Below are positions 4,663-22,626 of a stretch of 49,026 bases of DNA, piece by piece. The notes beneath the pieces were generated by a model. It was given only the letters and a program-made list of their open reading frames with translations. It had not been told where the DNA came from and searched no databases. The position numbers and the translations under genes were made by a program. The DNA lies in assembly GCA_011525805.1 (NCBI GenBank), contig WYBR01000130.1, positions 1-49,026 on the forward strand, in the 5' to 3' direction. The stretch is from Vicinamibacteraceae bacterium (GTDB taxonomy: Bacteria > Planctomycetota > Phycisphaerae > Phycisphaerales > UBA5793). The number at the start of each line of letters is the position of its first letter. Position 1 is the first letter of the stretch.

Positions 4663-5175
4663 ATGAAGTACGACTCAACGCTCCGCCCCGCCTTCACCCG
4701 ACGCACCGGCTTCACCCTCATCGAAGTGCTCATCGTTCTGGTGATCGTGCTGGCCATCGGCGGGATCGTCGCGGTCAACCTCATGCCGCGGCGCGACCAG
4801 GCGCTCAAGGACACCGAGCGCGTCCAGTTGCGCATGATCGAAGCGGCGCTGGAGCAGTTCTACCTCGACATGGGCCGCTACCCGACCGAAGAGGAGAGCA
4901 TCGCCTCGCTCTGGGACAAGACAAAGATCGAGGATGAGAACCTCCAGACCAAGCACATGGGCAACTACTTCGCCCAGGGCAAGAAAAACCTCAAGGACCA
5001 GTGGGGCAACGAGTACGGCTATCGCCCGCTCGACTCCGAGGCCGAAGGTGGCGAGTCCGACGGCCGCAAATACGAACTTTGGTCCAATGGACCCGACGGC
5101 GAAGAAGGCACGGAGGACGACATCAAACTCGAAGAGGCGACGGAAGAAGAAGGGGCCGGCGGCACCGGCATCTGA
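4663..5175 (+). CDS. gspG: Type II secretion major pseudopilin GspG
   Basis: The product is 170 residues. The class III signal peptide ends in TRRTG and cleavage before FTLIEVLIV leaves the conserved Glu at mature position 5. It is followed by a hydrophobic helix and the GspG landmark GNEYGYRPL...GPDGEEGTEDDI, where calcium is usually bound. The C-terminal tail is unusually acidic. The ATG at 4663 has an AAGGAG site at 4651-4656 with 6-base spacing; the in-frame GTG at 4645 lies before that site and is unlikely. GspG polymerises into the periplasmic pseudopilus that pushes substrate through the secretin. The next gene (gspH) begins 78 bases later. Confidence 0.96.
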   Translation: MKYDSTLRPAFTRRTGFTLIEVLIVLVIVLAIGGIVAVNLMPRRDQALKDTERVQLRMIEAALEQFYLDMGRYPTEEESIASLWDKTKIEDENLQTKHMGNYFAQGKKNLKDQWGNEYGYRPLDSEAEGGESDGRKYELWSNGPDGEEGTEDDIKLEEATEEEGAGGTGI

Positions 5176-5253
5176 CCGTCCGCCTTTCGGGACGCTGCTG
5201 TGCCTCCGGGCGCCGACGCCGATCTGCTTCGATCTGTTCACGGGAGGCGCGCC

Positions 5254-5979
5254 GTGAGAAGCCGCCGCGGCCTGACGTTGCTGGAAGTCCTGATCGTGCT
5301 GGCGCTGCTCATCGCGTCGGCGGCGATCGCGATCCCGGCGATGTCGCGGCGCTTCGAGGCCACGCGCTTTGACGCCACGGTCGATCAGATCATCGCCACC
5401 CTCGCGCTCGCGCGGGCCCAGTCGCAGCAGCAGCGCCGGCCGGTTCAGGTCATCTGGGACGCCAACGCGCGGACCGTCCGCGCCGCCTGGCTCGACGCAG
5501 CGGCGCTCGCCGACGAAGACGATTCGGATGGATCATCGCACGAGGCTGAGGAGCCGCGCGGTCCGGCGGATGGTTCGGACGAGCGCAGCGGGCAGGATCG
5601 CCTCGACGCCGCCGCCGTGAACGCCGACGCGATGGCGACAGGCGGATCGAGTCTCCGTGTGCTCCTGCCCGAAGGGTGCCGCGTCGAAGTGCGCCCGACC
5701 GCCGACGAGGAAATGCCGGCAGACGCGGCGGAGGATCGGTTGGACCCGATCGCCGCCGCCGATTCGGCCGGGCGAAACCTCTCGCTCGCCGTCTTCATGC
5801 CTGACGGATCGACGTTCGGTCAGGCGTCTTTCAGGGTCGTGGACAACCGTGGCCGGCAGGTGCGCATCGACATCAACCCGTGGACGGGGCAGGCGGCGTT
5901 CGCGCCGGTCGCTGCCGCCTCGCCGCCGGCGGGTCCGTCTGAGGACGGGGCGCCGTCCGGGATGGAGCGCGAGCCGTGA
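5254..5979 (+). CDS. gspH: Type II secretion minor pseudopilin, GspH-like
   Basis: The product is 241 residues. The prepilin N-terminus reads RSRRG followed by LTLLEVLIVLALLIA (Glu5 present), then a 'FDATVDQIIATLALARAQSQQ' type helix common in GspH, and a late segment with RQVRIDINPWTGQ. A long acidic, low-complexity insertion (about residues 85-130) makes it longer than the usual 150-200. The GTG at 5254 is chosen because GGGAGG lies at 5242-5247; the in-frame ATG at 5200 gives a non-prepilin extension. Its stop overlaps the gspI start by 4 bases. Assignment as H rests on position between gspG and gspI and on the minor-pseudopilin form. Confidence 0.85.
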   Translation: MRSRRGLTLLEVLIVLALLIASAAIAIPAMSRRFEATRFDATVDQIIATLALARAQSQQQRRPVQVIWDANARTVRAAWLDAAALADEDDSDGSSHEAEEPRGPADGSDERSGQDRLDAAAVNADAMATGGSSLRVLLPEGCRVEVRPTADEEMPADAAEDRLDPIAAADSAGRNLSLAVFMPDGSTFGQASFRVVDNRGRQVRIDINPWTGQAAFAPVAAASPPAGPSEDGAPSGMEREP

Positions 5980-6476
5980 ACCGTCTGCGCGGCGCCATCC
6001 TCCTCGAGATTCTCATCTCGCTGGCGCTCTTCGTGACCGCCGGGTCGATCATACTTGTTTCGACGACGAGCATGACCTCCGCGCTCGTGCGGTCGCGCGA
6101 CCGTCAGATCGCGTTCGATCTGGCGGTGGCGAAGATGGCGGAACTCGAGGCCGGACTGACCACCGCCGAGCAGTTGCACGATTCGTTCGTGGACGTGGCG
6201 CTCATCAGCGAAGCGGACCGCGAGAGGCTGGATCCGGCCGGCGCCGGCCCCGGGCGCTGGCGCGTCGTCGTCGAGACGGAGCCTTCGCGATTTACGCCGC
6301 TGACCAACGTGACCATCCGGATTCTTGATGCGCGCGACCGTCGCGGCGGCTCGGAGCCGGAACTTGCAGTGATCCACCAGTTGCTGCGGCTCAACTCGGC
6401 GGGGCCGGATGAGTTCGAGACCGATCCGATTCTCGACGCCGTGGGCGCCGCCGACGCCCCGCAGGAGGCCGGATGA
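5976..6476 (+). CDS. gspI: Type II secretion minor pseudopilin, GspI-like
   Basis: The product is 166 residues. The short leader MNRLRG is followed by the hydrophobic helix AILLEILISLALF. The usual Phe at mature +1 is replaced by Ala but Glu5 is kept. The rest is a soluble domain without other motifs I recognise; length and order (G-H-I-J-K) support GspI. The GTG start at 5976 overlaps the gspH stop as GTGA, so translation is probably coupled. It is thought to form the pseudopilus tip with GspJ and GspK. Confidence 0.82.
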   Translation: MNRLRGAILLEILISLALFVTAGSIILVSTTSMTSALVRSRDRQIAFDLAVAKMAELEAGLTTAEQLHDSFVDVALISEADRERLDPAGAGPGRWRVVVETEPSRFTPLTNVTIRILDARDRRGGSEPELAVIHQLLRLNSAGPDEFETDPILDAVGAADAPQEAG

Positions 6477-7324
6477 ACCCGCGCGAGAAGGCAACACGGC
6501 CGAGGAGCGGACCCCGGAGCGCCTTCACGCTCATGGAGACGATCGTCGCGCTGGCGCTGCTGCTCGTGCTCGTCGGCTCCGTCTTCGCCTTCGGAATGAA
6601 CCTCACCGCCAGCCGCGAACGGCTCAACCGGCACATGCGGCGATCGCAGGCGGTGCGCGTGTTTCTTGACCGGCTCGAGCAGAATCTCCGCACCGTCGTT
6701 GCTTCGGATGCAAAGCACGGCGCGGGCATCGAGGGACGCGAGGATTCGCTCGTGCTGCTCAGCCGCAGCGTCGGCGCGATGGGGGGGCAGGGGGGGACCG
6801 CGGCCGCGTTCGGCGATCTCCAGCGCAGCGAGTATCGGTGGAACCGGTCGGCCCGCTCGCTCGAGGCCGCCTGCGGACCCGCGGGCGATTCTGCTGCGGT
6901 TCACGCCATCGCCGACGATCTCGGATTCGTCCAGTGGCGCTACCACGACGGGACCGGCTGGTCGAGTTCATTCGACAGCGGTTCGACGCGCCGACTGCCC
7001 GTGGCCATCGAAGTCGCAATCTGGTTTGACCCCCCGCCTCTCGATGAGACGGCCTCACCCGCTCCGCCGGAAACGGACGACGCGGCGGCGCAGGATCCCT
7101 TCGGCTTGCCGCTCAGCGCTCAGCCTGATCGCACGTCGGCTGGCGACGAAGCGTCGGGCCTCGAGGATGAACTCGAAGACGCTTCGCGGCGCAACTGGCC
7201 GCCGCCGGATCGCGTGCGGGTGATCGTCGTGCCCGATGCGCCCGAGTTCGAGTACGGCCGGCGCTTTGACGACGATGCCGATCTGCCCGTGCCCACCGAC
7301 GCTCCCACGGAAGGAGGCGTGTGA
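6473..7324 (+). CDS. gspJ: Type II secretion minor pseudopilin, GspJ-like
   Basis: The product is 283 residues. The leader ends PRSA and is followed by FTLMETIVALALLLVLV. Residue -1 is Ala instead of Gly, and Glu5 is conserved. The extended soluble domain includes WRYHDGTGW, a GspJ-like feature, and an acidic Pro-rich C-terminus. The ATG overlaps the gspI stop by 4 bases (ATGA). Two tracts of seven G lie at 6781-6787 and 6790-6796 inside the gene. The placement before gspK fits the conserved I-J-K tip complex. Confidence 0.85.
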   Translation: MNPREKATRPRSGPRSAFTLMETIVALALLLVLVGSVFAFGMNLTASRERLNRHMRRSQAVRVFLDRLEQNLRTVVASDAKHGAGIEGREDSLVLLSRSVGAMGGQGGTAAAFGDLQRSEYRWNRSARSLEAACGPAGDSAAVHAIADDLGFVQWRYHDGTGWSSSFDSGSTRRLPVAIEVAIWFDPPPLDETASPAPPETDDAAAQDPFGLPLSAQPDRTSAGDEASGLEDELEDASRRNWPPPDRVRVIVVPDAPEFEYGRRFDDDADLPVPTDAPTEGGV

Positions 7325-9024
7325 TGGGCAAGACATTGAGGACTCATGGGTGCGCGGCATTGACGGATGATGTCGCACGGCGCCGCTCCCGCCTGGGTCC
7401 TCGCACTGACGCGGGACCTGTGAAGGCCGCGGCGCGGCGCCCGCGTCCGCAGCGGCGCGGGGTGATCATCCTCGTGGTCTTCGTCATCATCAGCGGCGCA
7501 GCGCTCATCATGACGAGCCTCTCGTTCCTCGGGCGGGCGGAAATGCGCAGCGCAGCGCTCGTCGGCCGAACGGCGCAGGCCCAGGCGCTGGCGTGGTCGG
7601 GGGTCCAGGCCGTCATGGCCGAACTCGACGCCCAGCGGCAGGAGATGCTCGACGGGCGCGATCCGCAGATTACCGACGCGTGGAGCCTCTACGGGACCGG
7701 GTCGGAGCGCGGCATGATCCAGTTGCTCCCCCTTGGCCCCGAGGATGAACTGATCGTCTCCGAATCGGCCAAACTCGACGTGAATCTCGCCGACGCCGAG
7801 TCGCTCGCGAAGATGGATGCGTTCCTCACGCCTGAATTGGCGCAGGCGATCGTCGAGGCGCGCCAGGCGAGGCCGGGCGGTCGGTTCGATTCGATCACCG
7901 ACCTCCTCGAAGTCGACGGCATTGCGCCGGAACTGCTCTGGGGACCGCTCGACAAGGTCCAGGTGCAGCGGGCGGCGGCGTCGGAGCGAGACGCGGATGT
8001 TCACTTCGAGCGGCGCCTGCGCTCCCTTCAGCGCGGCGTGGCCGGGCCGGAACCCCGCGGCCTGGCCGATCTGCTCACCGTCTTCAGCATCGAGCCGGTC
8101 ATCCAGTCCACCGGGCGCTACCGCATCAACATCAACGCGAAGTACGATGATCGCATGCACCGCCGTATCGCGCGGCGCTACGGCGAGGACCTCGCCGACA
8201 CTGTGCGGCAGTTCCGCGAGAATGAGCCGGACCTCGTCATCACTGAGAAGCAGTGGTATGACCTTCTGGTGCTGACCGAATCCGAGGATCGGCAGACTGA
8301 CGAGTACCTTGACGGTTTCTGCCTCGACGAGCAGAAGTACACCCAGGGCCGCGTCGATCTCAATCGCGCGCCGGCGGAGGTGCTGGCGGCCCTGCCGGGA
8401 CTGGACATGGATCTCGCCGCCGCCCTCGTTACGGAGCGCGAGACGCTCAGCGCCCGCGACCGCGCCGGGCTGGCGTGGCCGATGGCCGCCGGCGCGCTTA
8501 CCGAAGTTCAGTGGGCCGCGGCGGCGCCGCGACTCACCTGGCGCACCTCGGCGTGGCGCGTGCGCGTGCTCGGCCGCATTCTCGCCGGCGAGGAGGAGGA
8601 CGTGGAAGTGGCGGGGGAGTGCGTCTACGAGGCCGTGATCGATCTGTCCTCGCCCCAGCCGCGCGTGGCCTACCTGCGAGACATCACGATGCTCGAGACC
8701 GCCGTCTCGCTGCGCCATCTGCTGCCCGCCCCGCCCGTCGAGGACGAAGCCCGGGCCGACGAGGCCGATGGGACGCCGGATGCGGATGAGCCCAGTTCCG
8801 AAGCCGAGGCGCCGTCGCGATTCTCCTCCCGCCGCGACTCCTCCGGCCGACTGGTCGATCGGCCCACTTTTGACACTCCTGAGACAGAAGAACCGACTTC
8901 CCCTCCACCCGATCCACCCTACGATGGGCGCGACGCCGACGGTGCGGCAGCCCAGGAGCCGGGCGGTGAGAAGCCGCCGGTCAGGCAGATCAAGCCCATC
9001 GGCCGCTGGACAGGAGACCGATGA
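7324..9024 (+). CDS. gspK: Type II secretion minor pseudopilin GspK
   Basis: The product is 566 residues, longer than usual GspK (about 320-380). After a basic leader it has RRGVIILVVFVIISGAALIM, which lacks Glu5 as is normal for GspK. Two helix-hairpin-helix-like segments follow: LDVNLADAESLAKM...FDSITDLLEVDGI and VDLNRAPAEVLAALPGL. GspK caps the pseudopilus tip. The ATG at 7324 overlaps the gspJ stop (TGATG), with AAGGAGG at 7311-7317 and 6-base spacing; the GTG at 7321 is too close to that site. The C-terminal 110 residues are acidic and Pro-rich, probably disordered. The stop overlaps the gspL start. Confidence 0.9.
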   Translation: MGKTLRTHGCAALTDDVARRRSRLGPRTDAGPVKAAARRPRPQRRGVIILVVFVIISGAALIMTSLSFLGRAEMRSAALVGRTAQAQALAWSGVQAVMAELDAQRQEMLDGRDPQITDAWSLYGTGSERGMIQLLPLGPEDELIVSESAKLDVNLADAESLAKMDAFLTPELAQAIVEARQARPGGRFDSITDLLEVDGIAPELLWGPLDKVQVQRAAASERDADVHFERRLRSLQRGVAGPEPRGLADLLTVFSIEPVIQSTGRYRININAKYDDRMHRRIARRYGEDLADTVRQFRENEPDLVITEKQWYDLLVLTESEDRQTDEYLDGFCLDEQKYTQGRVDLNRAPAEVLAALPGLDMDLAAALVTERETLSARDRAGLAWPMAAGALTEVQWAAAAPRLTWRTSAWRVRVLGRILAGEEEDVEVAGECVYEAVIDLSSPQPRVAYLRDITMLETAVSLRHLLPAPPVEDEARADEADGTPDADEPSSEAEAPSRFSSRRDSSGRLVDRPTFDTPETEEPTSPPPDPPYDGRDADGAAAQEPGGEKPPVRQIKPIGRWTGDR

Positions 9025-10799
9025 CCATGTTCGCCTCGCCCCGGGCCGGCGCCCGGATGATCGCGATCGACCTTTCCAGCAGCCAGTTCACCGCGGTGCA
9101 ACTGGGCGCGATGAAACGGGGCGTGCGCGTCGGCGGTCGCGTGTGCGTTGACATTCCACCCGACGTCGAGCCGAGCGATGATGAGTGGTTGGGCAAGTGG
9201 ATGGCGCGAACGATGGAGGAGCACGGCCTGGGCCGCGCGCCGGTGGTGTTCGTCGTGCCGCGGCAGTCCGTCGGGCTCAAACACCTCACGCTTCCCTCCA
9301 CGCGCCTCGACGAACTGCCGGGCATGGTGGCGATCAAGATGGCGGGGCAACTGCCCTTCCCGGCGGAAGGGTCGATCATCGACTACGCCGTCGTGGCCGA
9401 GACCCAAGGCTCGTCGGAGGTCATTGCCGCGGCCGCGAGACATGAACTCATCGACCGCTACCGGGCGCTGGCCGAGGCGGGTCGATTGAAGATCGCGCGG
9501 ATCGCGCTGCGCCCGCTGGCGACCGGCGCGCTGATCGCCGAGTTTTCCCGTCGGCGCAGCGGCGCGCTGCTGGCGATCGACCTGAGGCGGTATGGAGAGG
9601 TCGAACTGGTCGTCGCGTGCAACGGCGTGGTGCGCTTCGCGCGAGCCGCCGAGGTCATCGCCTCCTCGGAGGAGGTCGATCGACACGAAGAGGCGCGCCG
9701 GCTGGCCACGGAGGCGAAGCGCTCGTGGATGAGTTTCCGCGCGACGGAGGAGGCGCCTGACGTCGATCACATCGTCGTGATCGGCGCCGACGGCCTGGCC
9801 GGCGCCGTGGCGGCCGAGGTCCGCTCCTCGCTCGGACGGCCGACCGAGGTTCTGTTGAGCCATCCGGCAGTGGATGGAGAGGCGAGCACGCTCGGCTCGG
9901 TCTGGCCTCTCGTCGGCGTGGCGCTGCAGTGCGTCGAGGGCGTCGACGGGGTCGATTTTCTGAATCCCAAGAGGGCGCCGGACCTGGCCGCACGTCGCCG
10001 GCAGCGCGTCCTCGCCGGAGCGGCCGCGGGCGTCATCCTCCTCGGCGGCGCCTACACCCTGGGCAACTTTCACCTGCGCCGACTTGAAGACCGCCTCGCG
10101 GCGCTCAAGGAGGAGTCAAAGGTTCTGCTGCCGGACTATTTGAGTTTTGAGCGCGCCCGACTTCGCCTCGAGCACCTGCGGCGGTGGGAGAAGGCGGGGT
10201 TCGACTGGCTCGAGCACCTCGCGTTCATCTCCGATCACCTGCCGCCGACTGACCAGGCGATTCTCGGATCGTTCTCCGCTTCGATGAGCGATTCCGCGAT
10301 CCGGTGGACCAAGGGCCAGTGGATCGAGCCGGCGCCGATCGCGACGATCACGTTCAACGGCGCCGCGGTGAGCCGTCCCATCGCGGATGCGATCCGCTCC
10401 TCCTTCGTCAGCGAGAAGGCGTATGAAACGACGCCGATCGGCACGGACACTTCCTCCAACGACAAGACGTACCTCGAGGCGTTCAACCTCAGACTGCGCA
10501 CGCTGAAGGCGACGCCCTACGAGCGCGCACTGACTCGCGAGCCGGCGCCGGCGGACTTACCGCAGACTTCGGCGCCGGCGGATGAGGGCGGCGGTTCGGG
10601 CGCGGCGGCGGAAGGCTTCGAGTTCGGCGGCGTGGAAGCGCCGTCGTCCGGCGCTCCGCCCGTCGAAGGCGCGGCCGCTCCTGACGCCGAGCCAGCGCCC
10701 GTCGAGGACGGCGGCGCGGCCGGCGATGGCGCGCGCCGACCGGCGAACAGCGGCAGCCGCCCGCGCCGCCGCAATCCGCGCGAGGGAGGCGGCGGATGA
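9021..10799 (+). CDS. gspL: GspL/PilM-like actin-fold assembly protein
   Basis: The product is 592 residues. The N-terminal part (about 1-320) reads as the PilM/GspL cytoplasmic actin-like fold, with MIAIDLSSSQFTAVQL at the start, KHLTLPSTRLDELPGMVAI, and ALLAIDLRRYGEVELVV. A membrane segment lies near residues 330-350 (GVILLGGAYTLGNF), followed by a coiled coil (RLEDRLAALKEESKVL) and a periplasmic domain. The last 80 residues are Ala/Pro/Gly-rich. GspL recruits the ATPase GspE and binds GspM. The ATG overlaps the gspK stop by 4 bases and has CAGGAG just upstream. The fold looks more PilM-like than classical GspL, which is common outside Proteobacteria. Confidence 0.85.
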   Translation: MTMFASPRAGARMIAIDLSSSQFTAVQLGAMKRGVRVGGRVCVDIPPDVEPSDDEWLGKWMARTMEEHGLGRAPVVFVVPRQSVGLKHLTLPSTRLDELPGMVAIKMAGQLPFPAEGSIIDYAVVAETQGSSEVIAAAARHELIDRYRALAEAGRLKIARIALRPLATGALIAEFSRRRSGALLAIDLRRYGEVELVVACNGVVRFARAAEVIASSEEVDRHEEARRLATEAKRSWMSFRATEEAPDVDHIVVIGADGLAGAVAAEVRSSLGRPTEVLLSHPAVDGEASTLGSVWPLVGVALQCVEGVDGVDFLNPKRAPDLAARRRQRVLAGAAAGVILLGGAYTLGNFHLRRLEDRLAALKEESKVLLPDYLSFERARLRLEHLRRWEKAGFDWLEHLAFISDHLPPTDQAILGSFSASMSDSAIRWTKGQWIEPAPIATITFNGAAVSRPIADAIRSSFVSEKAYETTPIGTDTSSNDKTYLEAFNLRLRTLKATPYERALTREPAPADLPQTSAPADEGGGSGAAAEGFEFGGVEAPSSGAPPVEGAAAPDAEPAPVEDGGAAGDGARRPANSGSRPRRRNPREGGGG

Positions 10800-11758
10800 G
10801 CATGCGGCGCACCATCGTGCTCTCCATCGCGGTGATCGGCGGCGCGCTGCTCGCGTGGCGCCTCGCCTCGTCGCTCTACCTCGCCCCGCGCCGCGAACTG
10901 CTCGCGGAGATCGCCAACGCACAAGAGGAGATTGACGGCCGCCGGGAGGTGATCAGCGGCGAGGTGGCCCTGCGACGCCAACTCCGCGACGTTTCGCAGC
11001 GCACGCTCGGCGGAACGGCGGAAGAGGCGATCAGCGCCTTTCGCGCGCGGCTCAACACGATCGGGCACGGCGTCGGCTTGAGCGATCTGCGCGTCTCCAC
11101 CTCGCCGGTGCGCGCCCTCGACTCACCCGCCTCCGCCGCTCACTCGCGCGAGTCGGGGTGGAAGGCGATGGCCCGCCAGCCCGACTTCCTCGAGATCAGC
11201 GCTGAGTTTAGCGGGCAGGGAACGCTCGAGCAGGTGGTCCGCGCGATCGAGATCCTCGAAGCCGAGCCGTACGTCAAGCGCCTCAATCGCGTTACGCTTC
11301 GCCCGCGGCGCGAAGGGGAGGTCGTTGATCTCTCGACATCGCTCACCACGATCATCCTCCCGGACACGGCCGCGCAGGTGCTGCCCGACCCGTCCGTGGC
11401 GCAGCCGACTCTCTTCGCGGCCCTCGCGCAGAAGAACATGTTCCGCGCGCCGCCTCCACCGGCGCCGCCTCCTGCGGTTCGCCCGGAGCCGACGCCGGCC
11501 GTGGCCGAGCATCGGCCCCCGCCCATCCCGTGGGGCGACTGGGTTGTCACCGGCATCGCCTGGATCGACGGCCAGGGCGAACTCTGGGTCCGCAACACGA
11601 AGACCAGCGAATCGAAGCAACTGCGCTCGGGCGATCGCCTCCTCGACGCGCAGATCGAAGCCATCAACCACACGGAGGCGATCGTGTCAATCGACGGGGC
11701 GAGGTTCCTGATCGAAATCGGGCAGACGCTGGGAGACCGGAGGGCGGTCGACCAGTAG
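10796..11758 (+). CDS. GspM/PilO-like protein fused to a GspC/PilP-like HR domain
   Basis: The product is 320 residues. Residues 8-24 form one membrane helix, followed by a coiled coil (RELLAEIANAQEEIDGRR) and a ferredoxin-like region to about 190, the arrangement of GspM and PilO. After a linker, ALAQKNMFRAP plus a Pro-rich stretch leads to a C-terminal domain (about 246-314: VVTGIAWIDGQGELWV, LRSGDRLL, FLIEIGQTLGD) that resembles the homology region of GspC and PilP. That region normally contacts the secretin N0 domain. The fusion would link inner-membrane platform and secretin in one polypeptide and explains the absence of a separate gspC here. The ATG overlaps the gspL stop by 4 bases. 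The split of roles is inference from motifs. Confidence 0.75.
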   Translation: MSMRRTIVLSIAVIGGALLAWRLASSLYLAPRRELLAEIANAQEEIDGRREVISGEVALRRQLRDVSQRTLGGTAEEAISAFRARLNTIGHGVGLSDLRVSTSPVRALDSPASAAHSRESGWKAMARQPDFLEISAEFSGQGTLEQVVRAIEILEAEPYVKRLNRVTLRPRREGEVVDLSTSLTTIILPDTAAQVLPDPSVAQPTLFAALAQKNMFRAPPPPAPPPAVRPEPTPAVAEHRPPPIPWGDWVVTGIAWIDGQGELWVRNTKTSESKQLRSGDRLLDAQIEAINHTEAIVSIDGARFLIEIGQTLGDRRAVDQ

Positions 11759-11847: not shown

Positions 11848-14800
11848 ATGCTGAAGCGGAGCATCGGTTGGCTCGTGTGTTTGCCAGCGGTTGTCGCGAT
11901 GTCGGCGTCCGCATCAACGCTTTGGGCCCAGGGTGAGACTCCCGCCGCGCCTCCACCGGCCGCGGCGCCGCCGGAGGCGGCTCCCGCCGCCGAGGCGACT
12001 CCGACCGCTGAGCCGGTCCTCCAGTTCAACTTCAAGGATGCGCCGTACAGCGAAGTGGTCAACTTCTTCAGCCGCGCCGTCGGGCTGCCCGTGATCGCCC
12101 GGGTCGATCCCCCGCCGGGCGCGCTGACGTACTTCTCCCCCGAGTCCTACACCTACAGCGAAGCGCTGCGCATTCTCAACATCATTCTTCAGACCAAGGG
12201 CGTGACGCTAACGCGCGAGGGCGAGTTTCTCTACCTCGGAACCTTCGACAAGACCAATCCCGGGCCGACCTATCTCGCCGGCACCATCCCCGGCGACGTC
12301 ACGCCCGAGCAACTCATCACCGTTCTCATCCGCCTCGAAAACATCACGGCCAACGAACTCTCCGAGCGGCTCAAGTCGCTCGTGGGGGCTTACGGCGGCA
12401 TCACCCCGCTTCCCCAGCAGAACGCCCTGCTGGTGACGGAGACGGCCGGGCAGATCCGCCGCCTCCAGACCATCGTCGAAGCGCTCGACAGCGCGGGCGA
12501 CTACCAGGACCAGGTCCGCATCTTCCCCGTCGAGCACGCCCAGGCCACCGCCCTCGTCAACACCCTCAAGGTGCTCATGAGCGAGCGCGTCGTCAAGTAC
12601 GTCATCAACCAGCAGGGCCAGCAGGTCAAACTCGAAGAGGACGATCTCGCCGGCCTGCGCATCGAGCCCGACTCGCGGACGAACACGATCATCGCCAAGG
12701 GACCGATCGGCCGCCTCGACACGCTCAAGGAGATGATCGCGATGCTCGACGTGCCGGGGCGGCAGGGGGCCGACGGCACCGACATGACGACCATCAGCCT
12801 CGGCCGCATCTCCAGCGCCGAGGCGTCGCGCCTGCTCAACGATCTCTTCCGCCCGCTCAAGAACGAGGACAAGCCGGTCATCCTGCCCCTCGACGAACTG
12901 AACCGGATCACCATCGTCGGCTCGGCGGTGGCGCTCGATCGGGCCGTGGAACTTCTGGAGGAAGTCGACGGCGGCGGAGGAGACCCGCTCAACTTTGCGC
13001 GGACGGCGACGGTCGTGCCGCTGCGCTATGCCGCGCCGGCGAGCGTGCAGCAGGCGCTGCGTGCCCTCATGACGCCGCGCCAGACGCGCCTCGTGAACAC
13101 GCTGCCCTCGCCCGACGGCCGCTCGCTCATCCTCGCCGGGCCGACCGGCGACGTCGAGCAGGTGCGCTCGCTCACCCAGACGCTTGACGTCGAGCCGCGC
13201 GACCGGCCGCGCGAAGTCCGCCTCATCCGCCTGGCACGCGGCGACGCCGAAGCGGTGCTCAAGCGCGTCGGAGAACTCTACGAGCGAGAGACGGGCGGAC
13301 CCGAGGCCGACCCGATGCGGGTGATCGAGGTCGAGCGCGACCCGGAATCCAACGCCATCACTCTCATCGGCCGGCGCGAAGCGATCGACCGCTGGCAGGC
13401 GCTGCTGACGTCCGTCGAATCCGCCCTTCCCATCGAGAAGGAAACGCGGCAGGCGGCGGTGTCGCCGGGTCAGGCCGCGCGCATCGCCGGCCCGCTGCGC
13501 ACCCTCGCGCAGCAGATGCTCACGCCTGCGGACGGCTCGCCCTTTGTCGCGCCCGAGATCACGCCCGTCGAAGCGCTGGACGTGATACTGCTCACGGCCC
13601 TGCCGGAGCAGATGCCCGTGCTCGAGTCGATCGTCAAGGCGCTCGATGACCGCCGCGCCCGCGACGTGCAGTTCCGGGTGGTGAACATCGCGGGCGCCGA
13701 TGCGGAGTCGGTCGTCGCCCGCGCCGCGGAGATTTACGCCCAGCAGCGGCAGGCCGACGCGGCCCTGACGGAAGTGAGCGTGGACCACGACGCCGCGGCG
13801 GGAGTTCTCTACCTCGTGGCGGAAGCGCCGGCGATGGCGCGCTACAGCGCGATCCTGACGCAACTCCAGCAGACGGTCGGCGCCGCGCGCGAGGCGCGCC
13901 TCGTCGCCCTCCAGTTCGTCGACGCCGGCAAGGCGGCGTCGTTCCTCGGCGACCTCGTCTCGGCGTCGAAGTCGTTTCAGGGCGGAGCGATCGGACCCGC
14001 GCCGATCGTCGAAGTCATCGAGGCGACGAATTCGCTCCTCGTCGCCGCGCAGCCGGCCCAGCACCAGATCATCCAGGCGATCCTCCGCGAGTTTGATCAG
14101 CCCCGGCACAGCGACGAAACGGTCGAACTGCGCGTCTTCAACCTCGTCCAGGCGAAGGCCGCGAGCATCGTGCCCGCGATCCAGTCGCTCCTGGCCGCCA
14201 AGGGCGCAGCGCCCGGCGCCCGCGCGGCGAGCGTGACGGCCGAGGAATCAACGAACTCTGTCGTCGTCGCCGCCGCCACCGACCAGATGCGCGAGATCGA
14301 GTTGCTCATTGATCGCCTCGACGCCGGCCAGGCGGCCGATCAGCCTCAAGTGCGGACCGTCTTCCTCCGCAACGCCCGGGCGGAGCGCGTCGCCCCGATG
14401 GTCGAGCAACTCCTGCGCGGCGAGCAGATGGACCAGTGGATGCGCTTCGACTTCATGCGGCGGGGCTGGCAGTTGCCCGACCTCGGGCCCGACGTGCGCG
14501 TCGCCTCCGAGCCGCGCCTCAACGCGGTCATCGTCAGCGCTCCCGCTTCCGTGCTCAACCTCGCGGAGGAGATGGTGCGGCAACTGGACGTCGATCCGTC
14601 CCAGACGGCCAGCGCCTCGCGGCGGTCGATCCGCGTCATGCCGCTGCTCAACGCGACGGCGCAGGATGTCGCCGCCGGCCTCGAGGCCGTGCTCGCCGAC
14701 GACGCCGGCGCCGCGGCCGACCCCCCCGTTATCCGCGTCGATGCCGGCAGCAACTGCCTCATCATCCGCGCCACCGCCGAGCAGTTCACGCTGATCGAGC

Positions 14801-17800
14801 AGATCGTCTCCGAACTCGAGGCGGCGACGATGACCGCGTCGCGCGAGGTCCGGATGATCCCCATCGACCGCTCGCGCGCCAGCGCCGCGCAGACTGCGGA
14901 AACGCTCCGTCGCCTCCTCGAACAGCGCGGCGGAACCCGCGTCGAGATCATCAGCGTTGATGAACTTATCCGCCGACAGAAAGAGGCGGAGGGAGAGTCC
15001 TCCGCTGAAGACGAGCGCGACGAAGGCGAAGAGGCGCAGGGCGCAGCACCCGCGGCGTCGAAGGCGATGGCGCCAGCGGTCGCGGAGGCGAAGACGCCAG
15101 CGGCCTCGGCGCTGTCCGATGCCTCGATGCCCGAGTGCTTTGACCCCTCGATGCCTCGACGCCTTGATGCGTTGATGCCTCTGTTCGTATCTTTGTGCCT
15201 TTGTGGTGAGATTGACTTCATCGCGCCGCCCGAGGAGGAGCCGGACATCATTATCGCCGTGGACGAGGCGACCAACAGCCTCATCATCGTCGGCTCGCCG
15301 GCGGCCAACCGCCGCCTCGCCCAACTCGCCGAGCAGATTCAGTCGCAGATACCGGGCCTTCCCGAGCACATCCGCTACATCGCGCTCGACGAGCGGGCCA
15401 ACGCGAACCAGGTCGCCACGGTCGTGAACAACATGGTGAACCAGATGCGGCGGCGCGGCGCGGCCGGCGGCCTCACCGGCGAAGTCGCGGTCATCGCGGA
15501 CCAGCAGGGCTCGGGCCTCATCGTCAGCGCCAATGACGTGGATTTTGAGGTGATCGGGCGCGTCATCACCGCGATGAATCGCTTCACACCCATGGAGGAT
15601 GCGCCTCCCCTCACCATGATCGAGACGGTCAGCGCCGCGCCGAGCCGGCTCAAGACCATCCTCGAACAAGTGCTCATCGGCGGCGATCCGGCGCGACGCG
15701 AGCGCATCACGCTCGTCCCCGACGATCCCTCCCAACTGCTGCTCGTGCGGGCGAATGAGGACGACCTGGCGGCGATCCGCGAGGTGGTCAAGGAGGTCGA
15801 TCGATTCGAGACCAAGGAACTGCCCATCCGCGCGATTAAACTCGAGCGCGCCGACGCCCAGCGGGCGGCGCAGTCGCTCCAGCAGTTCTTCGAGGACCGC
15901 GCGCGGCTGACGCAGCGCCCCGGCCAGCCTCGCCCGCCCCGTCGCATCAGCGTGGTGGGAGACCAGCGCTCCAGCACCGTCTTCATCGCCGCCAACGACG
16001 CGGACTTCGGCGAGATCGAGCACCTGCTCAGGGCGTTCGATGCGCCGAGCGAGGCCCAGGACCTCAAGTACGAGATCATCCCGCTCAAGTTCGCCAAGGC
16101 GGAGGATGTCTCGCAGATCGTCAACAGCATGGGCTGGCAACTGACCTACGACCAGGGCGTGGGCCCGTGGGGCGGGCGCTCGGAGGTCCGCGGCAAGATC
16201 AGCGTCCAGGCCGACGCGCGGACCAACTCGCTCATTGTGAGTGGAACCGGTGAGAACTTCGACCTCATCAAGAGCGTCGCCGTGGCCCTTGATGCGCCGG
16301 CGGATCTCCAGGCCGCCCGCTCGGTGCGCATCCTCAGGATCGAGCACGGCGACGTGAACATCATCAACCGCGCCGTGCAGGAGACGTACGGCGCCGCGCA
16401 GATGCCGACGTGGTGGTGGTACGAGCCGGCGGATCCGGACGAAGTGAAGATCATCCCCGACGTCGCCAACAAACTTCTCATCGTCAGCGGGCGAGAATCG
16501 GACCTCGACGGCATCGCCGGGTTCGTCAAGACGCTCGACGAAGCCTCGCAGCGGCCCGGCCAGGCCATCGAGATTCTCACGGTGAATCACGCGCGGGCGA
16601 GCGACGTGGCGCAGAGCCTCGTGCGTTTCTTTAACGACCGCGCGCGGGCGGCGAACCTGCCCAGCCCCGGCATCACCATGACCCCCGCGGATGAATCAGG
16701 CCGAATCGTCGTGTCGGCCACGGCGGAGCAGATCGCGACCATCCGCGACCTCCTCAGCAGCATCGACGTTCCCTCGGCGGGCGACGATCGCGACTTCCGC
16801 CTTCACGCGCTCGAGCACGGCAGCGCCGAGAATGCCATGCAGACGCTTCGCGAACTCTTTCCGGCGCGAGGCGAAACGGCGGCGCGGCAGGTGCTCGTGA
16901 CCGCCGACGCGCGCACGAACAGCCTCGTCGTCAGCGCCCCGCGGGACCGTTTTGGCGAGATTGACGCGGTGCTGGGCATGATCGACGCCCCCCCGGCCGG
17001 CAGCGTCAAACTCATCCAGACCTTCTCCCTCGCCAACGCGCGGGCCGCGGAAGTCGCGCAGGTCCTCTCCGAGGCCTTCGACCTCACGCGTCAGCCCGGC
17101 CGGGCGCGCTCGCGGACGATCCAGGAGGAAGTGACGCGCTTCATGCTCGACGGCACCGACGAGGGCGCGGCGCCGATCGAGATCGACGCCCGCATCACGC
17201 CCAATGCGCGGAACAACTCGCTCATCGTCGTCGCCACGCCCGAGTCGATGCCGATGATCGCGCGCTTCGTCTCCGAACTCGACGAGGCGCCGATCCGCTC
17301 CGTGCGCGAGTACCGCATTTACCCGCTGACGCACATCGTCGCGGCGGACGTGCGCTATACGCTCACGAGCCTGCTGACGCAGCGTGCGGACCGGCCGGGG
17401 GGAGCCACGGCCGATCCGGCGCCGACCGTGAGCACCTCGCCGCGCGACAACAGCCTCATCATCGCCGCCACCGCCGAGCAGCACACCGAGATCGAGCAGG
17501 TGCTGCATCAGATCGACCTGCCCGCGAAGACCGTCCGCACGACGGAGTTCGTCCCCCTCAAGTTTGCGCAGGCGGAGAAGGTGGCCGGGGCGCTCGACGT
17601 CTTTTACGGCCGCTACGCGCTCGAGGCCGACACCCCCTCGAAGCAGAACGTCTCGATCGTGCCCGATCCGGCGAGCAACAGCCTCGTGATCTCTGCCGAG
17701 GAGAGCGAATGGCCGGGCATCCGCGAACTCATCGCGAAACTCGACGGCGAGGAGTACGACACGACGCTGCAACTGGAGGTGATCGCTCTTCGCTACGCCG

Positions 17801-20800
17801 ACGCGTCGTCGGTGAGCACGGCGATCAACCAGGCGTTTGCTCCGCAGGTCGAGCCTCGCCGGGGCGGCAACCAGCCCGTGCGCCGACCGGGCAACGGCGA
17901 GGGGCAGCCTGAAGACGGCGGCGCCCAGCCGCGCATCCTCGTCGCCGACACCGACGTGGTCCGCGCCGCGGCCGAGCCGCTCACGAACTCGATCATCGTC
18001 TCGGCATCGCGCCGCAACCTCGAGAAGATCCGCGCGATCGTCGAGAGTCTCGACGTGGCGGACTACGCGCAACTGCCGCCGGTGCGGCTCATTCCGCTCG
18101 ATGAAGCCAAGGCGGCCGAAGTCGCCGCGACGCTCACGAGCATGTATGCCGACGAATCCGGCCGCGGCGGCGCGCGGCGCAGCGGTCGCAAGAGCGTCCT
18201 CATCAGCGCCGACGCCGCGTCGAACACGGTGATCGTCCGCGCCGAGGAGGAGGAGTTCTCGCAGATCGAGGCCCTCGCCCGCGCGCTCGAGCAGACATCG
18301 CGCAAGGAAGGCATGACGGTGCGCGTCCTCTCGCTGGCCAAGGCGAGCGCGCCGCGCGTGGCCGAAGCGATCCGCGAGACCTTCGCGGCCACGGCCCGGA
18401 CGATGGATGAGCCGCTGGCGATCGAGGTGGACAGCGTCGCCAACAGCCTCATCGTCGCCTCCTCGGCGCGCCTCTTCGAGCAGATCGTCGGCGTGGTCGA
18501 GGAACTCGACCGCCTCGGCCCCGGCGGGGGCCAGCAGATCTTCGTTGTGCCCATCGAAAACGTGGCGCCCGAGGAAATGAAGCGGATTCTCGAATCGCTC
18601 GATCTCGACAAGCAGCGGGAAGGGGCGGCGGGGATTCTCGGCGAACCGCTCAAGGTGACGGTCCTGCCCGGCCGCCGCGCCCTGGCGGTCGTCGGCAATC
18701 CCGGCGATCGCGAACGCATCCTCGCCATCATCGGCGCCCTCGACGCTGCGCCCGACCTCGCGCAGGCGCAGGTGCGGCTGGTGGAACTGCGGCAGGCGGA
18801 GGCCGGCGCCGTCGCGGACATCCTGCGCGAACTGCTCCGCCCGGCCGAGCAGCATGCGCAGACGCCGCTGGCGACCGCGATCCGCGAGCAGGTCCGCCGC
18901 CTGAGCCTGCACCGCAGCGGCGCTCTGGAAGACGATATCGAGCTTGACTTGACGCAGCCGATCCGCGTCGTGCCCGCCCCCAACGTCAACGCCATTCTCA
19001 TCAGTTCGACGCCGGCCAACTGCGAAGCGCTCGAAGAGATCGCGCGGCTGTTTGACCGCCTGCCGGTGACGGAGGCGGTGACGGTGCGGCTTTTCCCCCT
19101 GAGCAACATCGCGGCGTCGATGATGAAGTCAATCGCGGAAGACCTGTTCACGCAAGGCCGCAAACTCGCCACCCAGCCCGGCACGAACATCGAAGGCCGG
19201 CCGCTGACCGAGGTCGGCGGCGCGCTGATCGAGGACGTGGCGATGACGGTCGATGAGCGGACCAACACGCTCATCGTCGCGGGACGTGAGGCGGCCGTCG
19301 CGCTCGTCGAGGTGCTCATCGGCAAACTGGACAGCGACATTGCCGCCCGCTGGGTCGAGCCGCGCGTCCTGCTCCTGCGTCACGCCGACGCCGAAAACCT
19401 CGCCGAAGTGCTCGACGAGGTCCTCGTGCGCGGGCAGGCGACTGGGCCGGAGGCGCAGTCGATGCAGAGACAGGTCGGGCGGCTGCGCATCGCGCGGCGC
19501 GGCGGCGGCCCGGAGGACATGCTCGATGCCGACCTCTTCGTCCCCATGACGCGCCTGCTCATTCGGCCCGAGCCGAAACTCAACGCGCTGGTGGTGGTCG
19601 GCACGCCGGAGAACATCGCCGTCGTCGGCGAACTCGTGGCGATGCTCGATGTGCCCGCCGCCGCCCCGAGCCAGGCCGTGCGCATCTACACCCTCAACCA
19701 CGCCACCGCGGCCCGGGTCGCGGGCATCCTCGTCAACCTTTTCGACCGCCAGGCGCAGACCGGCGCGATCCGCGACGAGGATCGCGTCGTCGCGCAGCCC
19801 GACGAGCGCACCAACTCGCTGATCGTCACGACCAGCCCTCGCAGTTTCTCCGTGCTCGAGATGCTCCTGCAGTCGCTCGACTCGCGCCGCGCCGCGGAGA
19901 TGCACGACATCCGCATGATCCGCCTCGACAACGCCTCCGCGACGGTGATTGCCCCGCTCATTCAGCGGCTGATGGACTCGCGCCTCGAGCGCCTGCGCCG
20001 CTACGAGCCGGAGACGGCGGATCTCCAGCAGGCGACCATCATCGCCGACCCGAGGACCAACAGCCTGCTCATCACCGCCGGGGCGGAGAGTTTCGCGGTG
20101 ATCGAGCAACTCGCCAACTCGCTCGAGAACACCCGCGCCAGCGCCGCCAACGACGTGCAGATCATCCCGCTGGAGCGAGGCAACGCCGCCAAGGTGGCGG
20201 ACACGATCCAGCGCGTCATGGACCGCCAGTACGCCGACCTGCCCGCCGATCTCGCCAGTCGCGAGAAACCGCTCATCCTCACCGACTCGCGAACCAACAG
20301 CCTGCTCGTCACCGCCAGCGCCGACGACCTCAAGCGCATCGGCGACCTCGTGACGAAACTCGAGAACGCGCCCTTCAATCCCGCGTTGAGCCTGCACGTC
20401 ATCCCGGTGACCGGGCAGCGCGTCGAGACGCTGGCGCCGCGGCTCACGTCGCTCATGCGCGAGCGCGAGCGGTCGCTGGGCGAGTCGGCGGGCGTTCAGG
20501 ACCGGACGGTGATCGAGGCCGATCCCGCCACCAACAGCCTCATCGTCGCCGCGAGCGAAGACAACCTCAATATCGTGCGCGGCCTGATCGAGACGCTCAG
20601 CGACGCCGAGACCTTCGCCGCCACCGGCGCCCAGGTCGAGATCATCACGCTGCGCAACTCGCTCGCCGACCGCATGGTCGATCAACTCAACGCGCTGTAC
20701 GTGACGGAGGCGAACCGGACGCGCGGCGCGGGGACGATCCGCGTAAGCGCCGACACGCGACTCAACGCGGTGGCGATCTCCGCCCCCGAGCACGACCTCG

Positions 20801-22626
20801 CCGCGCTGCGCAACCTCATCAACGAACTGGAGTCGACGCAGGTGACCGACGTGCGGGAGATTCAGATGATCCCGCTCAAGGCCGCCAACGCCATTGAGAT
20901 CGTGTCCGTGCTCGAGAACGTCCTCTCCGGCGGGCGGCGAGGCGGCGCGACCGAGGGCCAGGCCACGATCATCCGCTTTATCCGCGAGTCCGCCCGCGAC
21001 CTGATCGAGAAGGAGCGCCGTCAGCCCGGCGAACCGACGGAGACGGAAATCTCCCTCGCGGTGCGCGAGGCGATCCGCTTCACCCCGGACCTGCGGACCA
21101 ACTCCGTCGTCGTCTCGGCCCCCGCCTCCTCGATGCGGATGATCCGCGAACTGATTGACGAACTCGATTCCTCCGAGACGGGCTCGAAGCGAGTGCGGAT
21201 CTTCGAACTTGTGAACGCCGACGCGGTGCAGATGGCGGAACTGCTCGGCGAACTCTTCAACCTGCGCGAGCAGGGGTTGATTCTGCGGCCGCGCGATGAC
21301 GGGGCCGGAGGCGTAACGCCCCCTGACCCCAGCGTCGTCGCCACCTTCAACGACACCGAACTCGTTACCGCGACGGACGAGCGACAGCAACTCTCCATGA
21401 CCGTCGATCCGCGGACCAACAGCCTGATCGTCTCCGGCACGCCGCGCTACCTCGACCTTGTCGAGCAGGTCATCAAGGACCTCGACTCGAAGACCGGCAC
21501 GCGGCGCGAGGAGAAGGTCTACGCCCTGCGCAACGCCCGGGCGACGGACGTCGCCACCGCCCTCAACGACTTCCTCACCCAGGAGCAGGAGCGCATCCTG
21601 CGCACGCTCGGCCCCGATCGCGCCGGCTCCATTCTCCAGCAACTCGAGCGTGAAGTGTCGGTCGTGGGGGTGACGGAGAGCAACACGCTGATGATCTCCG
21701 CCTCGCCGCGCTATATGGACAAGATCCAGGGCATCATCGAGGAACTCGACAAGACGCCGCCGCAGGTGCTTATTTCCGTCATGCTCGCGGAGGTCACGCT
21801 CGACTCCGACGAGCAGTGGGGCATGGACATCACGGTCGGCCCGTTCCGCGGCGACCGCGTGACGGCGTCGTCCTCCTTCGGCCTGGCGGCGGCGACGCTC
21901 TCGGGCCTGGGCGTGCCGAACCTCTCCGTCTCGACGGACGATCTCGAACTGCTCATCCGCGCCCTTGAGGCGCAGGGGCGACTTGAAGTCCTCAGCCGCC
22001 CGCAGATCCTCGTCAACAACAACGTCAACGCGACCTTCCAGGTCGGCCAGAACATCGGCATCGTCGAAGACGTCAACGTCTCCGACACGGGAACGGCCCG
22101 TTCGACCGTCGGCCGTAAGGACATCGGCATCATCCTCGACGTCCTTCCCTCGATCAGCCCCGACCGCTTCGTGCGAATGGAGGTCAAGCCGGAGATTTCC
22201 AGCCTCTCCGCCCGCACCACGCAGGTGAGCGAAGACTTCCAGGCGCCGATCATCGACACGCGCACCGTGGACACCGTCGTGACGGTCAAGGACGGCCAGA
22301 CCGTCGTCATCGGCGGCCTGTTCTCGACGCGCACCGAGATGCGCAACCAGAAGGTGCCCTTCTTCGGCGACATTCCGATCCTCGGCATCCCCTTCCGCAC
22401 CAAACTCCATCGGCGCGAAAAGACCGAGTTTCTCGTGGTCATCACGCCGCACGTCGTCGGCTCGATCGAGGACGCGAAGAAGTACACCGACGAGGCGATC
22501 ATCGACCTCACCCTGCCGGAGACGACCAAGGACCAGATCCGCAGCGGCCGCATCGACCCGAGCCTGTGGACCGATCCGACGGACAAGGACAAGAACAAGG
22601 CCCGGAAGGAGGAGGAGGAGCGATGA
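11848..22626 (+). CDS. gspD: Giant secretin GspD with about 37 N-domain repeats
   Basis: The product is about 3592 residues; GspD is usually 600-750. A signal peptide (cleavage likely after LWA, residue 27) is followed by an Ala/Pro linker. An N0 domain lies at about 56-135 (VLQFNFKDAPYSEVVNFFSR). From about 159 to 3301 I count some 37 repeats of about 85 residues. Each has a beta-start such as VRIIPL, an [A/N]A..V...L helix, and a closing RTNSLIVSA...I..LI..LD segment, the pattern of secretin N1-type ring domains. The C-terminal secretin domain (about 3303-3545) has VLISVMLAEVTLD, LSRPQILVNNN, VGQNIGI, KDGQTVVIGGL and VPFFGDIPILG. The tail is charged. The repeat near residues 1000-1150 has an inserted low-complexity segment. 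The ATG at 11848 has AAGGAG at 11832-11837; the open frame extends back to 11530 but only overlaps the previous gene. The product should form the outer-membrane T2SS channel. Confidence 0.93.
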   Translation: MLKRSIGWLVCLPAVVAMSASASTLWAQGETPAAPPPAAAPPEAAPAAEATPTAEPVLQFNFKDAPYSEVVNFFSRAVGLPVIARVDPPPGALTYFSPESYTYSEALRILNIILQTKGVTLTREGEFLYLGTFDKTNPGPTYLAGTIPGDVTPEQLITVLIRLENITANELSERLKSLVGAYGGITPLPQQNALLVTETAGQIRRLQTIVEALDSAGDYQDQVRIFPVEHAQATALVNTLKVLMSERVVKYVINQQGQQVKLEEDDLAGLRIEPDSRTNTIIAKGPIGRLDTLKEMIAMLDVPGRQGADGTDMTTISLGRISSAEASRLLNDLFRPLKNEDKPVILPLDELNRITIVGSAVALDRAVELLEEVDGGGGDPLNFARTATVVPLRYAAPASVQQALRALMTPRQTRLVNTLPSPDGRSLILAGPTGDVEQVRSLTQTLDVEPRDRPREVRLIRLARGDAEAVLKRVGELYERETGGPEADPMRVIEVERDPESNAITLIGRREAIDRWQALLTSVESALPIEKETRQAAVSPGQAARIAGPLRTLAQQMLTPADGSPFVAPEITPVEALDVILLTALPEQMPVLESIVKALDDRRARDVQFRVVNIAGADAESVVARAAEIYAQQRQADAALTEVSVDHDAAAGVLYLVAEAPAMARYSAILTQLQQTVGAAREARLVALQFVDAGKAASFLGDLVSASKSFQGGAIGPAPIVEVIEATNSLLVAAQPAQHQIIQAILREFDQPRHSDETVELRVFNLVQAKAASIVPAIQSLLAAKGAAPGARAASVTAEESTNSVVVAAATDQMREIELLIDRLDAGQAADQPQVRTVFLRNARAERVAPMVEQLLRGEQMDQWMRFDFMRRGWQLPDLGPDVRVASEPRLNAVIVSAPASVLNLAEEMVRQLDVDPSQTASASRRSIRVMPLLNATAQDVAAGLEAVLADDAGAAADPPVIRVDAGSNCLIIRATAEQFTLIEQIVSELEAATMTASREVRMIPIDRSRASAAQTAETLRRLLEQRGGTRVEIISVDELIRRQKEAEGESSAEDERDEGEEAQGAAPAASKAMAPAVAEAKTPAASALSDASMPECFDPSMPRRLDALMPLFVSLCLCGEIDFIAPPEEEPDIIIAVDEATNSLIIVGSPAANRRLAQLAEQIQSQIPGLPEHIRYIALDERANANQVATVVNNMVNQMRRRGAAGGLTGEVAVIADQQGSGLIVSANDVDFEVIGRVITAMNRFTPMEDAPPLTMIETVSAAPSRLKTILEQVLIGGDPARRERITLVPDDPSQLLLVRANEDDLAAIREVVKEVDRFETKELPIRAIKLERADAQRAAQSLQQFFEDRARLTQRPGQPRPPRRISVVGDQRSSTVFIAANDADFGEIEHLLRAFDAPSEAQDLKYEIIPLKFAKAEDVSQIVNSMGWQLTYDQGVGPWGGRSEVRGKISVQADARTNSLIVSGTGENFDLIKSVAVALDAPADLQAARSVRILRIEHGDVNIINRAVQETYGAAQMPTWWWYEPADPDEVKIIPDVANKLLIVSGRESDLDGIAGFVKTLDEASQRPGQAIEILTVNHARASDVAQSLVRFFNDRARAANLPSPGITMTPADESGRIVVSATAEQIATIRDLLSSIDVPSAGDDRDFRLHALEHGSAENAMQTLRELFPARGETAARQVLVTADARTNSLVVSAPRDRFGEIDAVLGMIDAPPAGSVKLIQTFSLANARAAEVAQVLSEAFDLTRQPGRARSRTIQEEVTRFMLDGTDEGAAPIEIDARITPNARNNSLIVVATPESMPMIARFVSELDEAPIRSVREYRIYPLTHIVAADVRYTLTSLLTQRADRPGGATADPAPTVSTSPRDNSLIIAATAEQHTEIEQVLHQIDLPAKTVRTTEFVPLKFAQAEKVAGALDVFYGRYALEADTPSKQNVSIVPDPASNSLVISAEESEWPGIRELIAKLDGEEYDTTLQLEVIALRYADASSVSTAINQAFAPQVEPRRGGNQPVRRPGNGEGQPEDGGAQPRILVADTDVVRAAAEPLTNSIIVSASRRNLEKIRAIVESLDVADYAQLPPVRLIPLDEAKAAEVAATLTSMYADESGRGGARRSGRKSVLISADAASNTVIVRAEEEEFSQIEALARALEQTSRKEGMTVRVLSLAKASAPRVAEAIRETFAATARTMDEPLAIEVDSVANSLIVASSARLFEQIVGVVEELDRLGPGGGQQIFVVPIENVAPEEMKRILESLDLDKQREGAAGILGEPLKVTVLPGRRALAVVGNPGDRERILAIIGALDAAPDLAQAQVRLVELRQAEAGAVADILRELLRPAEQHAQTPLATAIREQVRRLSLHRSGALEDDIELDLTQPIRVVPAPNVNAILISSTPANCEALEEIARLFDRLPVTEAVTVRLFPLSNIAASMMKSIAEDLFTQGRKLATQPGTNIEGRPLTEVGGALIEDVAMTVDERTNTLIVAGREAAVALVEVLIGKLDSDIAARWVEPRVLLLRHADAENLAEVLDEVLVRGQATGPEAQSMQRQVGRLRIARRGGGPEDMLDADLFVPMTRLLIRPEPKLNALVVVGTPENIAVVGELVAMLDVPAAAPSQAVRIYTLNHATAARVAGILVNLFDRQAQTGAIRDEDRVVAQPDERTNSLIVTTSPRSFSVLEMLLQSLDSRRAAEMHDIRMIRLDNASATVIAPLIQRLMDSRLERLRRYEPETADLQQATIIADPRTNSLLITAGAESFAVIEQLANSLENTRASAANDVQIIPLERGNAAKVADTIQRVMDRQYADLPADLASREKPLILTDSRTNSLLVTASADDLKRIGDLVTKLENAPFNPALSLHVIPVTGQRVETLAPRLTSLMRERERSLGESAGVQDRTVIEADPATNSLIVAASEDNLNIVRGLIETLSDAETFAATGAQVEIITLRNSLADRMVDQLNALYVTEANRTRGAGTIRVSADTRLNAVAISAPEHDLAALRNLINELESTQVTDVREIQMIPLKAANAIEIVSVLENVLSGGRRGGATEGQATIIRFIRESARDLIEKERRQPGEPTETEISLAVREAIRFTPDLRTNSVVVSAPASSMRMIRELIDELDSSETGSKRVRIFELVNADAVQMAELLGELFNLREQGLILRPRDDGAGGVTPPDPSVVATFNDTELVTATDERQQLSMTVDPRTNSLIVSGTPRYLDLVEQVIKDLDSKTGTRREEKVYALRNARATDVATALNDFLTQEQERILRTLGPDRAGSILQQLEREVSVVGVTESNTLMISASPRYMDKIQGIIEELDKTPPQVLISVMLAEVTLDSDEQWGMDITVGPFRGDRVTASSSFGLAAATLSGLGVPNLSVSTDDLELLIRALEAQGRLEVLSRPQILVNNNVNATFQVGQNIGIVEDVNVSDTGTARSTVGRKDIGIILDVLPSISPDRFVRMEVKPEISSLSARTTQVSEDFQAPIIDTRTVDTVVTVKDGQTVVIGGLFSTRTEMRNQKVPFFGDIPILGIPFRTKLHRREKTEFLVVITPHVVGSIEDAKKYTDEAIIDLTLPETTKDQIRSGRIDPSLWTDPTDKDKNKARKEEEER
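15115..15211. repeat. Composite genomic repeat inserted in frame in gspD
   Basis: Within the gspD repeat that starts near residue 1010, 15115-15180 consists of degenerate units like CCTCGATGC and CCTTGATGC. Then 15184-15211 reads TTCGTATCTTTGTGCCTTTG followed by TGGTGAGA. On the minus strand these give peptides of the GIEASRH and TTKAQR type, which I recognise as recurrent artefact peptides from intergenic repeats of many environmental genomes (recollection, not a search). Base use is less GC-rich than the flanks. The gspD frame stays open and reads DASMP...DALMPLFVSLCLCGE, unlike any other part of the protein. Confidence 0.65.

Follow-up and report, generated by a model that had tools for sequence, protein, structure and literature searches.

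Textbook secretins are channels with a few rings in the periplasm. The DNA analysed here (the window, a whole stretch of 49,026 nucleotides from contig WYBR01000130.1) contains a gene for which a sequence-only reading had proposed a single open frame of 3,592 codons, a normal N0 domain, about 37 repeats of about 85 residues resembling secretin N-domains, and a secretin C-domain. This raises the questions of whether such a protein is a true secretin, to which secretion system it belongs, and what an array of this length would build.

The ORF listing and translation gave a product of 3592 aa from one uninterrupted frame, running from the ATG at 11848 to the stop at 22626. A GTG start at 11530, listed mechanically, overlaps the upstream gene (end 11758), and the ATG was therefore taken as the start. 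The product comprises a signal peptide, a weakly recognised N0 domain, exactly 37 Secretin_N domains (ring-building motifs, RBMs, here also called rings) and a secretin C-domain (Table 1). Pfam searches gave 157.5 bits for Secretin (PF00263, aa 3372-3537, cut-off 27.5) and 1061 bits for Secretin_N over the whole protein; when PF03958 was run on the source genome, most of the array was matched domain by domain on this contig, with few matches elsewhere. Having both a PF00263 C-domain and Secretin_N/RBM domains, the protein falls within the secretin family, for whose members an oligomeric outer-membrane channel would be expected. The proposed open frame and C-domain were thus both borne out, while the N0 domain fared less clearly: it lies in the right place and is matched over nearly its full span, but its PF21305 score of 18.7 bits is below the cut-off of 27, and a PDB search with it gave no significant match. 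Open frames of 738-1107 aa are also present opposite the giant gene, at 19129-22452 (-), 14248-16590 (-) and 16696-18912 (-); they are probably not genes, such frames being expected from high GC3.

Table 1. Features of the type II secretion operon and of the giant secretin gene in the window.
Feature	Position	Strand	Basis or remark
GspF	3022..4554	+	PF00482; true start probably downstream of 3022
GspG, major pseudopilin	4645..5175	+	PF08334
GspH-like pseudopilin	5200..5979	+	PF12019
GspI-like minor pseudopilin	5976..6476	+	Position, N-terminal hydrophobic segment; weak ComGE
GspJ-like minor pseudopilin	6473..7324	+	PF11612, sub-threshold
GspK	7321..9024	+	PF03934
GspL/PilM-like	9021..10799	+	PF11104
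GspM-like, C-terminal domain reminiscent of GspC-HR/PilP	10796..11758	+	Synteny
Giant gspD, 37 Secretin_N/RBM domains	11848..22626	+	Pfam, iterated repeat profile, translation
Sec signal peptide MLKRSIGWLVCLPAVVAMSASASTLWA, cut before Q	11848..11928	+	Translation, read by eye
N0 domain, conserved across giants	12025..12222	+	Weak PF21305 match, profile positions 1-65 of 71
37-RBM array, ~85 aa per domain, ~6-aa linkers	12325..21759	+	Repeat profile, linker measurement
Variable insert, alpha1-beta2 loop of ring 12, junction J1	15058..15246	+	Partly similar to a dispersed genomic repeat
Signal-peptide-like stretch MPRRLDALMPLFVSLCLCGE in ring 12	15151..15210	+	Position corresponds to g22 gene boundary with signal peptide
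Rings 15-22, AlphaFold2-predicted stretch	15829..17751	+	AF2 model, pLDDT 75.5
Secretin C-domain (outer-membrane channel) with VPFFGDIPILGIPF motif	21961..22458	+	Pfam, structure/profile matches

An iterated profile built from the repeats placed exactly 37 domains between aa 160 and 3304, every one with E <1e-7, and the period is about 85 aa. The domains are joined by short linkers (median 5.5 aa in this protein, and 5-6 aa in 21 of 21 giants measured) and are highly diverged from each other, the mean pairwise score being 39 against a self score of 378, or about one tenth. A profile of rings 15-22 matched solved GspD (E 4e-24) along its successive N-domains, and rings 35-37 together with the C-domain matched it at E 5e-26, their profile reaching 3e-69; by sequence profile the closest solved relatives are GspD proteins, ahead of PilQ or type III secretion system secretins. 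In an AlphaFold2 (AF2) model of rings 15-22 (15 sequences; pLDDT 75.5), a beta-alpha-beta-beta-alpha fold was predicted in 8/8 rings, and the model found the Deinococcus secretin 8co1 (Foldseek, best E 4e-9) and ExeD (1e-8), with a VIA-align Z of about 10 against GspD N-domains. The pTM values of the AF2 models are low (0.38 for rings 15-22, and 0.40), and the packing between rings is not confident. The identification of the repeats as GspD-type N-domains is supported by these sequence matches and by the predicted RBM fold; the repeat number and period of the sequence-only reading were confirmed, and a failure of the repeats to match secretin N-domain models, which it had named as refuting, did not occur.

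The giant gene is the last of an operon on one strand, preceded by genes for GspF, GspG and GspK and for GspH-, I-, J-, L- and M-like proteins, including T2SSF, T2SSG, GspH, T2SSK and PilM-like genes, and this type II secretion system (T2SS) context identifies its product as GspD, albeit one with 37 RBMs in place of the three (N1-N3) of T2SS GspD. No GspE gene adjoins gspF; the genome has 13 T2SSE matches, all at other places. A relative of the GspM-like gene is found upstream of giant gspD in many loci, and relatives with ordinary secretins have GspM-like and HR-like domains as separate genes before gspD (L094, L099, L100, L110). By synteny and by eye, the C-terminus of the GspM-like protein is reminiscent of GspC-HR/PilP. 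Pfam and PDB searches with this gene gave no match and the HR-like domain was not recognised by profile, so that its GspC-HR identity was not confirmed.

Giant secretins recur among the relatives of this bacterium. All four same-genus species checked have 37 rings, and about 22 of 61 close relatives, from several families, encode secretin frames of 2.4-5.1 kaa, with 44-53 rings in other families and 24-30 in shorter giants (counts are accurate to +/-1, as a split ring was counted twice in some proteins). A search for gspD lengths across the class, as the sequence-only reading had suggested, found matching frames >2.3 kaa in about 50 of 198 genomes sampled. Overall, giant GspDs have about 24-63 rings and occur in many Phycisphaerae families and in Verrucomicrobiota metagenome-assembled genomes (MAGs), the largest array (L129, in genome G099) having 63 rings in a 6169-aa frame. 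In a phylum-wide sample, matching frames outside Phycisphaerae did not exceed about 1430 aa, and among the planctomycetes sampled giants were found in Phycisphaerae only. From these sequences the oversized secretin is old, conserved and widespread in Phycisphaerae. A second unusual type of secretin, of about 1500-1700 aa, is present in many genomes of the order (e.g. G000:C65:34394-34918).

Within clades the ring arrays are collinear. Reciprocal best hits between rings were monotonic (37/37, 42/42 and 46/46), and all 37 rings of the window protein aligned in order both with congeners and with L029, a protein from another family. Differences in array length are due to gains or losses of blocks, the extra blocks of L029 following window rings 6, 8 and 13; between clades the collinearity is weaker. 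Such ring-by-ring correspondence indicates that every ring within a clade carries its own inherited identity.

The named records with giants are Phycisphaerales/Phycisphaerae MAGs and several Verrucomicrobiota MAGs, the latter (L071-L079, L083, L107) having 42-47 rings. In a quick C-domain tree, the deep branches of which are weakly supported, the Verrucomicrobiota giants fall inside a Phycisphaerae group, and their arrays are collinear with that group at 31 of 32 positions. This nesting and collinearity suggest that the Verrucomicrobiota probably acquired the secretion operon by horizontal transfer. The record names Akkermansia, Leptolyngbya, Cyanobacteria and Pirellula staleyi look like bin labels and not identities.

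In some lineages the array is divided between two or three adjacent genes, of which the later ones nearly always start with a signal peptide. At nearly all loci of family f19 with both genes visible, N0 and 22-29 rings (N0 not being called in L155 and L156) are followed by a second gene with 12-16 rings and the C-domain, and each second gene has a plausible Sec signal peptide. In genus g22 the first gene encodes 17-19 rings and the next one 24 rings with the C-domain; in L033 the genes overlap in an ATGA and the signal peptide is clear, and in its sister L030 the break is an in-frame stop. Genome G088 has three genes with 9, 14 and 15 rings, and a signal peptide on each. At 11 gene boundaries readable on both sides, a set that includes the ordinary-sized secretin L105, one RBM ring is divided between two proteins: the upstream protein ends in all or part of the first half of the RBM and the downstream one, after its leader, begins with the second half, although the half-ring matches are weak at a few boundaries (E 0.02-0.3) and the profile did not detect the upstream half at the first boundary of G088. 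The first pair of L139, tested as a twelfth boundary, was discarded, as its middle frame begins in a run of masked N; the same masking, and the two genes of other f19 loci, led to L139 being rejected as a three-gene array. A split in L081 was also rejected, being a single in-frame stop that lacks a signal peptide and is possibly an error. Ordinary-sized secretins in two genes, one for N0 with 4 repeats and a separate one for the C-domain, occur in Omnitrophota and Verrucomicrobiota (L120, L121, L122, L123, L127).

The reading considered probable is that this protein is a T2SS GspD in which the N-module has expanded from 3 to 37 RBMs forming a coaxial stack of about 38 rings. We infer its stacking, oligomeric state, tube length and pseudopilus path, as well as the cleavage discussed below. 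Each RBM would contribute one ring of an oligomer, for which the analogy with GspD suggests about 15 copies. The rings would be piled coaxially onto the C-domain, and N0 would lie at the bottom, close to a GspL/GspM-like platform. If each ring is assumed to add 2-3 nm, the stack would reach a length of about 80-110 nm and could serve as a tube or vestibule through which substrate and pseudopilus pass to the outer membrane from a deep-lying site at the inner membrane. In divided arrays, chain B would dock on chain A by completing the shared RBM, thereby interlocking the segments. A continuous stack is favoured by the shared split rings, the short uniform linkers and the conservation of individual rings. 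Against it stand the length of a tube of about 100 nm, which exceeds an ordinary periplasm, the normal size of GspG, which implies that a piston would need a very long pseudopilus, the low pTM values noted above, and the weak recognition of N0 and of the GspC-HR-like partner.

Planctomycetes can have greatly enlarged periplasms, as shown in classes other than Phycisphaerae (PMC5394234), and the described Phycisphaeraceae lack crateriform structures. The earlier suggestion of a link to the enlarged planctomycete periplasm is not specific: among the planctomycetes sampled giants are confined to Phycisphaerae, and Verrucomicrobiota MAGs have them too.

Whether the stack would be built from whole or from cut chains is a question raised by ring 12 (aa 1002-1167), whose sequence is broken by an insert of about 90 aa. 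The insert contains CGATGCCT-type repeats (window 15040-15240) with 23 further partial matches in the genome (75-100% identity over 22-110 bases), and the GC3 of ring 12 is 0.78 against about 0.90; by sequence, a dispersed short repeat seems to have entered the giant gene in frame at this ring. Single-gene giants of Phycisphaerales have a variable insert at the same ring, about 25 rings from the C-end, and these J1 inserts often hold a hydrophobic stretch with an A-x-A-like site. More of the J1 inserts than of other inserts scored above 2.4 as signal-peptide-like (24/44 against 3/72; rank test p 2e-7), as did the J2 inserts of families f8/f22 (6/9 against 1/33; rank-test p 1e-5), the score and threshold having been set after examples were seen and the proteins being related, so that the p-values do not represent independent tests. 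Counted from the C-end, the J2 inserts sit 10-15 rings in, at the place where the last gene of split families starts. Against composition-matched shuffles, 6 of 36 J1 inserts reached p<0.05 and none p<0.01, with 0 of 9 for J2, which is only suggestive. Such junction inserts may reflect processing, be left over from a gene fusion or form a hydrophobic loop.

It is conceivable, if on balance unlikely, that the product of the single gene is made as a precursor and then cleaved internally, at a signal-peptide-like site of ring 12 (about aa 1100-1120), the two chains remaining joined through the shared ring. Processing into smaller pieces was among the refuting outcomes named by the sequence-only reading, and related lineages do encode the array as two or three chains that are exported separately. 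The g22 boundary with its second signal peptide lies at exactly this ring, and the junction inserts of both kinds are more signal-peptide-like than others; on the other side, the post hoc score, the relatedness of the proteins and the shuffle result weaken the comparison, and a decaying fusion relic would leave the same pattern. In the window, the in-frame starts showed no Shine-Dalgarno-like sequence, which tells against this reading and led to an internal translation start at ring 12 being rejected. Cleavage overlaps with the stack model, as the final structure may still be a long stack. A more general proposal is more doubtful still: that the T2SS conduits of Phycisphaerae and some Verrucomicrobiota consist of about 35-60 stacked rings, measure about 100 nm and are assembled from one to three polypeptides interlocked by a split RBM, with single-gene precursors cut internally and the mature tube always segmented.

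The array might instead be a long flexible or folded-back chain of RBMs, in which only the last few domains by the C-domain form true rings and the rest act in the periplasm as scaffold, tether or a brush that binds substrate. A fully stacked tube being far longer than the usual periplasm, and AF2 giving no confident packing between rings, both speak for such a chain, which is nevertheless judged improbable: linkers of a uniform 5-7 aa are unlike beads on a string, ring positions are individually conserved within clades, and a gene boundary that divides a ring would oblige two chains to share one domain.

Across 3421 codons, divergence from a congener is 10% at first, 6.5% at second and 36% at third codon positions, a pattern that indicates a real gene under purifying selection. 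An assembly or annotation artefact, in which repeats were expanded or frames fused, is rejected as vanishingly improbable even though the source genome is a draft of 138 contigs, since the diverged repeats lack tandem repetition at the DNA level (a tandem-repeat search showed only short low-complexity runs), selection on the gene is strong, congeners have the same 37 rings, and giants recur in many independent genomes, including the single-contig genomes G015, G032, G062 and G094; the assembly artefact of collapsed repeats that the sequence-only reading had named as refuting thus did not materialise, and neither did a stuttered assembly.

Among known systems, GspD/PulD/XcpQ share with the window protein the N0, RBM N-domains, C-domain and operon setting, and provide its best sequence and structure matches, but have 3 RBMs in about 650 aa and lack the extra C-terminal domain of the upstream GspM-like protein. 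The nearest described case of a ring number extended for depth is Thermus thermophilus PilQ, described as among the largest systems characterised, whose six stacked N rings (N0-N5) span a wide periplasm (PMC5745081); this is a secretin of type IV pili and DNA uptake, with 6 rings as opposed to about 38 predicted for the giant. GspD N-domains on separate polypeptides are found in mitochondria of heteroloboseans and jakobids (GspDN1-GspDN3), where GspDN2 and GspDN3 are described as halves of a single N-domain, the C-terminal and the N-terminal one respectively (PMC8134430), and resemble the split rings of giants; that system is eukaryotic and reduced rather than expanded, and nothing points to a shared origin of the split. 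Within the same phylum, other planctomycetes (Pirellula-like records among them) have extended secretins of about 1240-1430 aa with 6-8 repeats; these lack the giant array, and their C-domains fall outside the giant groups in the quick tree with its weak deep support. Papers describing Phycisphaerae use 'giant genes' for those >15 kb, and most giant gspD genes fall below this size. No description of giant secretins was found in the open-licence PMC literature, which is weak evidence of absence; automatic domain annotations may well exist in public databases.

At the sequence level, a new size class of GspD with a segmental architecture is established, a class-wide secretin with about ten times the usual ring number, kept position by position within clades. 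It implies a secretion conduit of about 100 nm, or else a cell envelope of much greater depth than supposed, or ring-building domains put to a novel use. The stack model makes a specific prediction that electron tomography could make visible, and the divided arrays would be natural building blocks for the reconstitution of ring stacks.
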